From Haloterrigena salina JCM 13891 (GTDB lineage Archaea; Halobacteriota; Halobacteria; Halobacteriales; Natrialbaceae), in NCBI RefSeq assembly GCF_000337495.1, contig NZ_AOIS01000018.1, forward strand, positions 38,929 to 102,928: a stretch of DNA of 64,000 nt, in the 5' to 3' direction. A program made the translations under genes and the position numbers. Of this stretch, positions 7,122-59,137 are shown one piece after another. A model generated the notes under the pieces. That model worked only from the letters and a program-made list of their open reading frames with translations. It was not told the DNA's origin and did not search any database. The first letter of the stretch is position 1. Each line of letters starts with the position of its first letter.

Positions 7122-8906
7122 TTACAGCTCGTCGAACTCGAGGTCGCCTTCCCGGATCGCCGACAGCGTCTCCGCGAGGTCGTCGACGGGCAGCCGCTTC
7201 TGGTCGGTCGTGTCCCGCTCGCGGACGGTGACGGTCGTCTCCTCGTTTTCCACGGTCTCGTAATCCACCGTGACGCAGAACGGCGTGCCGACCTCGTCCT
7301 GGCGACGGTAGCGCCGGCCGATGTTGCCCGAGTCGTCGTACGTGACCGAGAGGCCGACCTCGCGCAGGTCCGCGACGATTTCGTTCGCCTGCGCCTCGAG
7401 TTCGTCGTCGTTCTGGAGCGGGAAGACGCCGACGAAGGTGGGCGCGACTTCCGGCTCGAGGTCGAGGTAGGTCCGTTCCTCGCCGTCAACCTCGTCCTCG
7501 CGGTAGGCGTGGTGGAGGACGGTGTAGACCAGCCGGTCGACGCCGAAGGAGGGTTCGATGACGTGGGGCGTGATGTGCTCGCCGGCCTCGGTCTGCTCCT
7601 CGACCGCGAATCCGGTCTTCTCGACGGGGATCTCGCGGGTTTCGCCCTCGAGATCGATCTCGACGACGTCGCCGTCGAACGCCGAGCGATCGCGCGCGGC
7701 GAGGTCCTCGAGCTGCTGGACGACGGCCTGCGCGTCGCCGCCGAACTCGGGACCGAGGTAACTCATGTCGGGGTCGACGGTGGCGCGCTCGACGGTCTTC
7801 GGTTCGTCGTACTGCTTGAAGATCGTAAAGCGGTCGTCGGAGTGCTCGCCGTGTTTCGAGAGGTCGTAGTCGCCCCGGTAGGCGAAGCCGGCCATCTCGA
7901 TCCAGTTGCCGTCGATCTCGCTTTCCGCGTCCCAGCAGTCGCTGGCGTAGTGGGCCCGCTCGCCCGAGAGGTGCTGGCGGAACCGGAACCGGTCCATGTC
8001 GACGCCGACCGCGTCGTACCACGGCTTGGCGACGCCCAGGAAGTAGGCGACCCACGGGCTCGAGATGATCCCGTCCTCGACGGCGTCGCCGATCGTCGTC
8101 CGGATCTCGTCGCCGTCCTCGGCGTTTTGCTCGCTGGCCGGGTAGAGCGTCACCTCGACGTCTTCGACGCTCGAGAGGTCCGGCTCGTCCGTCTCGGGGT
8201 CGATGAAGTACTCGAGTTCGGCCTGCGTGAACTCGCGAGTGCGGATGATCGAGCGCCGCGGGCTGATCTCGTTGCGGTAGGCCCGCCCGATCTGGGTCAC
8301 GCCGAAGGGGAGCTGGTTGCGCGCGTACTCCTTGAGCCGGGGGAACTCGACGAAGATGCCCTGTGCGGTCTCGGGGCGCATGTAGCCGGGATCGGAGTCG
8401 CCGGGGCCGATGTTCGTCGCGAACATGAGGTTGAACGTTTCGACGGCCTGGCCCGCGAGTCCCGCCCCGCAGGAGGGACAGACGAGTTCGTACTCGGCGA
8501 TGACCTCCTCGACTTCGGGGATGGGGAGGCTTTCGGCGTCCTCGTACTCGGTGTTGTCCTCGACGACGTGGTCAGCGCGGTGGCTCTCGCCGCACTCCGG
8601 ACACTCGACGAGCATGTCGTCGAAGCCGTCCAGGTGGCCCGAGGCCTCGAAGACGGGCTCGGGCATGATGGTGGGCGCGTCGATCTCCATGTTCCCCTCG
8701 GCGACCGCGAACCGGTCGCGCCAGGCGTCCTCGACGTTGCCCTTCAGCGCCGCGCCCTGCGGGCCGAAGGTGTAGAAGCCGCCGACGCCGCCGTAAGCGC
8801 CCGACGACTGGAAGAAGTAGCCCCGCCGCTTGGCCAGTTCGACCAGTCTCTCGCTCGTCGCCGCGGTCACGCTCTCGGTGTCGTCCGCGTGTTCTTGCTC
8901 ACTCAT
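7122..8906 (-). CDS. glyS: glycyl-tRNA synthetase
   Basis: A 594-residue class II synthetase of the archaeal/eukaryotic type, which charges tRNA-Gly. The N-terminus has the GlyRS sequence RRGYFFQSSGAYGGVGGF. A zinc-binding insertion has two Cys pairs (CPECGESH and CPSCGAG). Motif 2 reads YRNEISPRRSIIRTREF and motif 3 is PSFGVDRLVYTVL. The C-terminal anticodon-binding domain carries GRRYRRQDEVGTPFC. The frame is open to 8933, but ATG 8906 (MSEQEH) matches the usual N-terminus and overlaps the CBS-gene stop by 8 nt. It is probably co-transcribed with that gene. Confidence 0.95.
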   Translation of the reverse strand: MSEQEHADDTESVTAATSERLVELAKRRGYFFQSSGAYGGVGGFYTFGPQGAALKGNVEDAWRDRFAVAEGNMEIDAPTIMPEPVFEASGHLDGFDDMLVECPECGESHRADHVVEDNTEYEDAESLPIPEVEEVIAEYELVCPSCGAGLAGQAVETFNLMFATNIGPGDSDPGYMRPETAQGIFVEFPRLKEYARNQLPFGVTQIGRAYRNEISPRRSIIRTREFTQAELEYFIDPETDEPDLSSVEDVEVTLYPASEQNAEDGDEIRTTIGDAVEDGIISSPWVAYFLGVAKPWYDAVGVDMDRFRFRQHLSGERAHYASDCWDAESEIDGNWIEMAGFAYRGDYDLSKHGEHSDDRFTIFKQYDEPKTVERATVDPDMSYLGPEFGGDAQAVVQQLEDLAARDRSAFDGDVVEIDLEGETREIPVEKTGFAVEEQTEAGEHITPHVIEPSFGVDRLVYTVLHHAYREDEVDGEERTYLDLEPEVAPTFVGVFPLQNDDELEAQANEIVADLREVGLSVTYDDSGNIGRRYRRQDEVGTPFCVTVDYETVENEETTVTVRERDTTDQKRLPVDDLAETLSAIREGDLEFDEL

Positions 8907-54564: not shown

Positions 54565-55704
54565 TCACTTCCCCTCCGGCTTATCTTCCGCGGAAACGTC
54601 GCCTTCGTCGCTCTCGGTGTCCTCGCGGGCGGCCTCGATCAGGTCGGCCGCGCCGCGATCCGCGAGATCTCGGGCGAACTCGCGGGCGGCCTCGGCGTGG
54701 GTCTCGACCGGCAGGTCGCGGCTCCCCTCGACCGACTCCTCGCCGTCGCGGTCGAAGACGTTGACCGTGGCGTGGACGTACTCACCCTGGACGACCGCGT
54801 AGATGCCGACCGGCGCGATACAGCCGCCGCCGAGTTCGGCGAGGATCGTCCGTTCGACGGTCGTCTCGACGCGGCTCCGCGGGAAGTCGATCGCCGACTG
54901 GATGTCGCGGGCCGTCTCGCCGTCGCGTGCGGTCACCGCGAGCGCACCCTGTCCCGGCGCGGGAACGAACGTCCCCGTCGGGAGTTCCTGATAGTCGACG
55001 TAGTGAGCGAGGCCGCTGCGCTCCAGTCCCGACTGCGCGAGGACGATCGCGTCGTACTCGGTCTCGACCTCGCGCTCCATCGCCTGTCGCTCGAGTTCCG
55101 AGAGGTCGTCGAACCACTCCTCGACGGTGCGGTCGTACTCCGGTTCGTAGTCGTCGTCGCCGGCGTTCTCTTTGCGCTCCTTCTCGGCTTCCGTGCGCCC
55201 TTGGTGTTCTTCCTGCAGCGACGGCGCCAGCAGCTTCTCGAGGCGCGTGTCCACGTTCCCGCGCAGGGGCTCGACCTCGAGGTCCGGGCGCTCCGAGAGG
55301 AGCTGGGCTCGCCGGCGCAGGCTCGAGGTGCCGACGGTCGCCCCCTCGGGAAGCTCCTCGAGGGTCGAGCCGTCGGGCGTGATGAGGACGTCACCCGGCG
55401 GCCCGCGCTCTGGCACCGCCGCCGTGACGAGCTCTAGTGGCTGTTCGGTCGGCATGTCCTTCATCGAGTGGACGGCGCCATCGAGGTCGCCCTCGAGGAC
55501 GCGCTCGTCGAGTTCGCGGACGAACGCGCCCGTCTTCCCCAGCCGATGAATCAGTTCGTCCCTGATCTGGTCGCCCGTCGTCTCGACGGTGACCAGTTCC
55601 ACCTCGTAGCGCCGGTCCTCTAAGGCCTCTTCGACCAGTGAGGCCTGTCGCCGGGCGAGTGTGGATCCCCGAGTCGCCAGTCGCAGCGTCCCGCGCGTTC
55701 TCAT
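54565..55704 (-). CDS. hemC: hydroxymethylbilane synthase (porphobilinogen deaminase)
   Basis: A 379-residue enzyme that joins four porphobilinogens. It has the N-terminal LRLATRGSTLARRQ, the HSMKDMPTEQP loop, the GTSSLRRRAQLL and LRGNVDTRLEKL motifs, and the cofactor Cys in LGGGCIAPVG. Between domains 1 and 2 it carries a 55-residue acidic insertion (about residues 185-240) not found in bacterial enzymes. The open frame to 55770 precedes the promoter region; ATG 55704 has a minus-strand CTTTTCATAC box about 27 nt upstream. Confidence 0.94.
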   Translation of the reverse strand: MRTRGTLRLATRGSTLARRQASLVEEALEDRRYEVELVTVETTGDQIRDELIHRLGKTGAFVRELDERVLEGDLDGAVHSMKDMPTEQPLELVTAAVPERGPPGDVLITPDGSTLEELPEGATVGTSSLRRRAQLLSERPDLEVEPLRGNVDTRLEKLLAPSLQEEHQGRTEAEKERKENAGDDDYEPEYDRTVEEWFDDLSELERQAMEREVETEYDAIVLAQSGLERSGLAHYVDYQELPTGTFVPAPGQGALAVTARDGETARDIQSAIDFPRSRVETTVERTILAELGGGCIAPVGIYAVVQGEYVHATVNVFDRDGEESVEGSRDLPVETHAEAAREFARDLADRGAADLIEAAREDTESDEGDVSAEDKPEGK

Positions 55705-55775
55705 GGGAGAACAGTCGGCGCCTGGGGTATGAAAAGCGCACGCTTGTCGGGCGGCGGTCGTTGCGGTCATTCAGC

Positions 55776-55799
55776 TCACAAAACATATGGTGTTTGTGA
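55776..55799. promoter_or_regulatory. dyad TCACAAA-N10-TTTGTGA between hemC and the globin gene
   Basis: Seven-base half-sites TCACAAA (55776-55782) and TTTGTGA (55793-55799) face each other across 10 nt. The dyad lies about 75 nt before the globin ATG and about 70 nt before that of hemC, so it could act on either. No regulator is identified. Confidence 0.45.
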
Positions 55800-55821
55800 C
55801 CAAGTAACATGAATTTTCGCG

Positions 55822-55833
55822 CGAACATATTCG
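55822..55833 (+). promoter_or_regulatory. CGAA-N4-TTCG element before the globin gene
   Basis: CGAACATATTCG stands immediately before the TATA-like box (TACTTAACC, about 55840-55848). CGAA-N4-TTCG is, as I recall, the motif reported for NarO-type HTH_10 regulators upstream of denitrification promoters in Haloferax. Overlapping TTCGCGCGAA at 55816-55825 adds a second inverted pair. Confidence 0.5.
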
Positions 55834-58352: not shown

Positions 58353-58477
58353 GGCGTGTTCACTCGAGAGAACGCGGTTAGGTGTTGCTGAATACGTTCA
58401 TCGTGCGCCGCCGCCGGTTCGCCCGCTCGAGTCGACCCCCCTCGCGGCTTTTTCTCGCTGGAACCCCTCCGTTCCGT

Positions 58478-59137
58478 ATGTTACGCGCATCCATCGCCAT
58501 TCCGGCGGAAGCGCTGGCGCTCGAGTACGCGTCGAGCGCCGTTCCCGGGATCGAGGTCGAGGCCGAGCGGATCGCCGCGCACAGCACGGAGTGGATCATG
58601 CCGTGTCTCTGGATCGCCGACGGGGAGTTCGACGCCGTCGAGAACGCGTTGGAGTCGGATCCGTCGATCGACGAGGTCGTCGCGAGCGTGCGGTTCGACG
58701 AGGCGGCGTTCTACCACGTCGAGTGGGCCGAGGACGTGATTCGGCGGATCGATTCGTATATCGACAAGGAGGGGTCGCTGCTCGAGGCCCGGCTCTCGGG
58801 GGGCGAGTGGCGGGTCGACTTCCGTTTCGCCGACCGCGAGCAGTTCGACGCATTCCGGGAGCAGTTCGCGGACCGGGACTACTCCTTTCGGCTCCTGAGC
58901 CTGACCGAAATGACCCGCTCGGACCACGAGTTGCAGGACCTCACCGCGGCCCAACGGGACGCGCTCGTGGCCGCCGCGGAGCGCGGCTACTACCGCGTCC
59001 CGCGGGAGACGACGACGGCCGAACTCGCGGACGATCTCGGCATCACTCACCAGGCGATCTCGGAACTCCTCCGACGGGGGACCGAGAACCTCGTCTTCGC
59101 GACGCTGCCGGCGGAGCGGGAGTCCGAGTCGTCATAG
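58478..59137 (+). CDS. HTH_10 (bacterio-opsin-activator-type) transcription regulator
   Basis: A 219-residue regulator with an N-terminal Bat-associated domain (residues 1-150; ASIAIPAEALALEYA, FYHVEWAEDVI, EFRE-like FREQFADRDYSFRLL) and a C-terminal HTH_10 domain (LTAAQRDALVAAAERGYYRV, then ELADDLGITHQAISELLRRGTENL). No PAS or GAF sensor part is fused. ATG 58478 follows a CTTTTT box by about 27 nt. Target unknown. Confidence 0.88.
   Translation: MLRASIAIPAEALALEYASSAVPGIEVEAERIAAHSTEWIMPCLWIADGEFDAVENALESDPSIDEVVASVRFDEAAFYHVEWAEDVIRRIDSYIDKEGSLLEARLSGGEWRVDFRFADREQFDAFREQFADRDYSFRLLSLTEMTRSDHELQDLTAAQRDALVAAAERGYYRVPRETTTAELADDLGITHQAISELLRRGTENLVFATLPAERESESS

Follow-up and report, generated by a model that had tools for sequence, protein, structure and literature searches.

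The truncated haemoglobin gene of Haloterrigena salina JCM 13891 is preceded by an inverted repeat, CGAACATATTCG, which we interpret as the operator for a globin-activating HTH_10 factor, most likely the protein encoded on C51 of the same genome (G000); we put the probability of this explanation as a whole at about 0.7. Such a factor, bacterio-opsin-activator-like, would bind just upstream of the TATA box, help to recruit the basal machinery and activate the gene under anoxia and/or nitric oxide (NO). It would most likely be the autoregulated, 223-residue C51 protein, which is related to the regulator encoded in the nirK-nor cluster of Haloferax, and the globin would share its regulon with a quinol-type NO reductase (qNor), DUF2249, halocyanin and some haem-supply genes. 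The globin itself would bind or oxidise NO escaping the NO reductase. The features of the window, i.e. the whole stretch of 64,000 nucleotides that was analysed, are collected in Table 1 together with those of the other loci discussed below.

Table 1. Location of the features discussed in the text. Plain numbers are positions in the window.
Feature	Location	Strand	Remark
hemC, hydroxymethylbilane synthase, divergent neighbour	54565..55704	-	start taken at 55704, not at the ATG at 55770
hemC promoter box, own palindrome AAGCGTGCGCTT joined to TTTTCATA	55728..55745	-	about 24 nt before the hemC start
TCACAAA-N10-TTTGTGA dyad	55776..55799	.	probably chance; right arm alone common to the genus
TTTGTGACC and AACATGAATTTT	55793..55817		perhaps another upstream element
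Operator-like inverted repeat CGAACATATTCG (CGAA-N4-TTCG)	55822..55833	+	globin start codon 40 nt downstream
TATA-like box TACTTAA	55840..55846	+	6 nt (AGAGAG) after CGAACATATTCG
Truncated haemoglobin gene, 121 aa, PF01152	55874..56239	+	ATG at 55874
Gene for HTH_10 protein with BAT domain	58382..59137	+	followed by a DUF7344 gene
C51 regulator gene, 223 aa, HTH_10	G000:C51:23331-23999		candidate factor
Genes adjoining the C51 regulator (L048/L049)	G000:C51:24725-29722		4Fe-4S ferredoxin-N, NrfD-like, two small membrane proteins, P-loop NTPase
Interrupted regulator gene of G332	L324:2876-3480		assembly error possible
HemL2	L293 (G000:C19:29822-31114); also L325 (G255:C2)		
NorB variant, 1079 aa	L264:416-3655 (G000:C63)		N-terminal extension of more than 300 residues; no operator
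TTCC-N8/9-GGAA dyad	L263, about 8382-8400; L267-L278; L217-L246	- (L263)	

The product of the globin gene matched PF01152 (Bac_globin) with 84.5 bits against a cut-off of 21, and its relatives on plasmids are annotated as group 1 truncated hemoglobin; the next gene after it in G000 encodes a prephenate dehydratase. CGAACATATTCG agrees at every position with CGAAYATDKTYG, the denitrification motif of Haloferax mediterranei. The original prediction, which had assigned to the element both the sequence and the pre-TATA place of the Haloferax denitrification sites, was borne out on this point. Farther upstream, TTTGTGACC and AACATGAATTTT are common to most of the genus, while the adjoining promoter DNA has diverged.

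The bare pattern CGAA-N4-TTCG is common, with 4 occurrences in the window (3.0 expected) and 329 in the 4.84-Mb genome, and a match by itself is therefore weak evidence. CGAAYATDKTYG, being narrower, occurs 11 times in the genome; 4 of these sites are palindromic, the globin site among them. Evidence beyond chance comes from position and conservation. We collected 130 upstream regions of haloarchaeal globin genes, consisting of the window, 29 loci and 100 further stretches, among the matches listed (19 other listed Natrialbaceae globin places lie outside this set), and sites with at least 7 of the 8 fixed bases were counted in bins of 11 nt. In 55 of the 130 promoters, the 3' end of a site fell 36–46 nt before the start codon, compared with 0–8 sites in each of the remaining bins, and a T/A-rich box was observed 3–16 nt from the site in 48 of these 55. 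Strict sites were present between -85 and -30 in 41/130 promoters against a dinucleotide-shuffle mean of 0.38; three windows farther upstream gave 6, 0 and 0. The other 75 promoters, among them every one from genera g41 (18) and g29 (11), had no site at 36–46 nt. Counted by taxon, the positioned site was found in 4 of 7 families and in 18 of 37 genera, the latter being the fairer figure because the counts come from related genomes, and the conservation in relatives on which the original prediction had staked itself is therefore seen. That the CGAA-N4-TTCG before the globin is a chance match would agree with the abundance of the bare pattern in the genome and its chance level in the window, but this is contradicted by the position-specific conservation across 18 genera and by recurrence of the element at the qNor and regulator promoters, and we give it practically no credence.

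The element recurs before several other genes of G000. On C13, CGAATCGGTTCG, which fits CGAA-N4-TTCG but not the narrower CGAAYATDKTYG, is located 67 nt before a short qNor gene (PF22085 and COX1). On C51, the distance from the element to the gene downstream is 38 nt for the HTH_10 regulator, 38 nt for the divergent DUF2249 gene, 40 nt for a cupin gene and 155 nt for a 4Fe-4S/NrfD gene cluster. A further copy, on C19, precedes a second HemL gene (HemL2) by 75 nt; a 12-codon ORF in a different frame starts 40 nt after it, and the site is kept at 7/8 in two close relatives. As a rule, canonical HemL genes (23 loci) have no such element close to their start; a few show a 7/8 or 8/8 match at 57–68 nt. 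An inspection of the nir and nor promoters of this genome had been proposed as a check, and its outcome was divided: the element is present at qNor, but the two NirK-like promoters have no clear site, one showing AGAACATCTTCG (7/8) about 113 nt upstream and the other a half site only. The element is also absent from the long NorB variant on C63. Genome scans returned, in addition, sites within genes or without a plausible gene (for example C60:25465, C45:173105 and C13:70629) and a palindromic site (C3:77370) 17 nt before a GNAT ORF. Related genomes suggest that the element belongs to a gene set handling NO or oxygen lack.

A different dyad, TTCC-N8/9-GGAA (e.g. TTTTTCCACTCCGTAGGAA), recurs just downstream of the operator at qNor and also between the sites of the HTH_10 regulator promoter; no match to it was found between hemC and the globin. 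In G255, the HemL2 gene directly follows a second globin, on a contig of 396905 bases.

Gene order provides a further connection to NO reductase. Among the matches listed, 33 Natrialbaceae genomes had a PF22085 gene together with a listed globin; in 16 of them qNor comes directly 3' of the globin and on the same strand, weaker globins outside the list being uncounted. In 12 of these 16, the globin-qNor intergenic region was read, and all 12 contained a second site before qNor (10 perfect, 2 at 7/8). Across 27 named globin loci, hemC is divergent in 24, hemL lies within the locus in 18 and qNor is downstream of the globin in 10; in L023, the best qNor match is only a fragment. In H. salina itself, the canonical hemL on C13 has qNor in its vicinity. 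Both gene order and promoter connect NO reductase with an archaeal globin whose function is unproven.

The C51 regulator is the best candidate for binding the element, because, in most of the 30 relatives taken (the best 30 by score), its own promoter contains two or three sites: near -84 in 28, near -38 in 28 and at the ATG in 21. HTH_10 (PF04967) was the sole domain found in the protein, with neither PAS nor GAF. With these promoter sites and its genomic setting, it looks like an autoregulated factor accompanied by its regulon. In Halomontanus rarus, a C51-type regulator is encoded beside three DUF2249 genes, close to nirK and halocyanin, and in Haloferax larsenii the gene for a relative of the C51 regulator (88/207 identities) is flanked by qNor and a NirK-like gene. 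The site distances in H. larsenii are 42 nt for the regulator, 66 for qNor, 67 for the NirK-like gene and 42 for both the AhbD-like gene and halocyanin, and the records of the two species have the element before many of the genes just named. The gene names used here for the unassigned electron-transfer cluster next to the regulator on C51 were taken from the Halomontanus record.

The original prediction had instead named NarO. The palindrome is indeed the same, and in H. volcanii CGAA-X4-TTCG has been tied to NarO, a proposed helix-turn-helix factor, and to NarO-controlled denitrification (Hattori 2016, as represented in citing papers). It is, however, the C51 HTH_10 gene in the DUF2249 cluster that carries sites in its own promoter. 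A true orthologue of NarO, or some other HTH_10 paralogue, could conceivably bind the element instead, as these paralogues are numerous (71 first-look candidates in G000). The closest relative, G332, has a C51-type gene that is broken by the loss of 22 residues and a change of frame; this may be an assembly error. Yet both the globin site and the regulator promoter sites are intact there. We nevertheless consider such an alternative binder unlikely, if a serious competitor. According to PMC10062603, H. mediterranei lacks NarO and still uses the motif, which makes NarO less supported as the binder; the C51 promoter sites are conserved across about 30 genomes; and in H. larsenii the C51 relative has qNor and a NirK-like gene as neighbours. 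The window's own HTH_10 gene was rejected as the trans factor, since it is not kept near the globin (1/27 loci, 29% identity); its product is identical to the C51 regulator at 53 of 209 positions. The C51 protein thus stays the preferred candidate.

As to the signal, the predicted place of the globin in an anaerobic or NO response has support from another species: the cyanoglobin of H. mediterranei bears the motif and is induced under denitrifying conditions with a log2FC of 4.16, according to PMC11218638. One reading, which overlaps the operator explanation and concerns the signal, is that the site responds to anaerobiosis or NO in general and not to denitrification itself, the globin acting as a stand-alone response to NO or oxygen limitation. 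Among Natrialbaceae, a globin site (at least 7/8) was present in 9/13 with no NirK hit, 19/28 with NirK over the cut-off and 4/11 with a weak NirK; these small numbers showed no dependence on NirK. The site being as frequent without NirK as with it favours the general signal, as do the position of the globin next to qNor, the NO-removing step, and the NosZ model, which gave no match near full length in G000. Absence of NirK is, however, not absence of denitrification, the weak-NirK class reaches just 4/11, and the H. mediterranei data come from denitrifying conditions, so we place this reading somewhat short of even odds. Because the site frequency is the same without NirK and the globin adjoins qNor, the sequence data point more to the handling of NO than to denitrification proper, in small numbers and as judged by NirK. 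More tentatively still, and with a somewhat smaller chance of being right, we propose a haloarchaeal NO-defence regulon, separable from denitrification and under an autoregulated HTH_10 factor that reads CGAA-N4-TTCG. This factor, whose own promoter has two or three of the sites, would control NO reductase, truncated haemoglobin and, for haem supply, AhbD and the second HemL.

It had also been proposed that the TCACAAA dyad, lying between the globin and hemC, couples haem synthesis with haemoglobin expression. The dyad is present as described, with perfect 7-bp arms and a single occurrence in the genome, and its place between both genes would suit a shared operator. Its left arm, however, occurs in one of six genus members and is missing from the other five, so that the widely common part is TTTGTGACC only, and when the intergenic region was dinucleotide-shuffled 2000 times, 191 of the shuffles held an inverted repeat with arms of at least 7 and a spacer of 3–16. 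On these two grounds, it was rejected as a conserved operator. Moreover, hemC has its own promoter palindrome, which is unique in the genome and present in 23/27 loci, and the distance from this box to the globin ranges from 84 to 310 nt between loci, leaving the dyad a very improbable coupling operator. On account of the same variation, a coupling of hemC through the CGAA-N4-TTCG element was rejected: whereas the distance of the hemC box varies, the element stays about 40 nt from the globin, indicating that it belongs to the globin. The proposed hemC-globin coupling is therefore not supported, and a link to haem by way of HemL2 or AhbD is more likely.

Part of this picture is already published for H. 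mediterranei, namely the motif with its function at nosp and norp, and the presence and induction of the truncated haemoglobin. Mutation shows a role for CGAAYATDKTYG at both promoters (PMC10062603, PMC11218638), with a published distance of 66 nt at norp, and the bacterioopsin-activator gene of the nirK-nor cluster is among the motif-bearing, induced genes (PMC11218638). PMC5746218 describes the palindrome at ahbD of haem synthesis. The regulator that binds the motif is called undisclosed in PMC11218638, and the pattern described here names one testable candidate for it, the C51 HTH_10 protein. In open-licence papers, we found no description of the fixed globin-site geometry across 18 genera, the globin-qNor adjacency with paired sites, the globin element without NirK, or the multi-site promoter of one HTH_10 regulator.

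In comparison with the H. mediterranei system, the sequence fits exactly, the site is likewise promoter-proximal, and the genes published there include a truncated haemoglobin/cyanoglobin gene. The present case differs in belonging to Natrialbaceae, in having the globin beside hemC (and with qNor in many relatives), and in a globin site 40 nt before the start, whereas the sites of nirK, nor and nosZ there are at 66–79 nt. For qNor, the distances are close: 67 nt here, 66 at the H. mediterranei norp and 66 in H. larsenii. The NarO system of H. volcanii, in the account given by citing papers, shares the palindrome CGAA-X4-TTCG; the candidate here differs in being encoded in a DUF2249/4Fe-4S/NrfD cluster, close to nirK in Halomontanus. 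Overall, the operator geometry is about 40 nt before the start for the globin, DUF2249, cupin and regulator genes, and about 67 nt for qNor. In bacteria, a single oxygen- or NO-linked regulator, of the FNR/DNR type or NorR/NsrR, serves both NO reductase and globin. The haloarchaeal arrangement would be alike in outline, but built from an unrelated family, HTH_10, and an archaeal, TATA-proximal operator.
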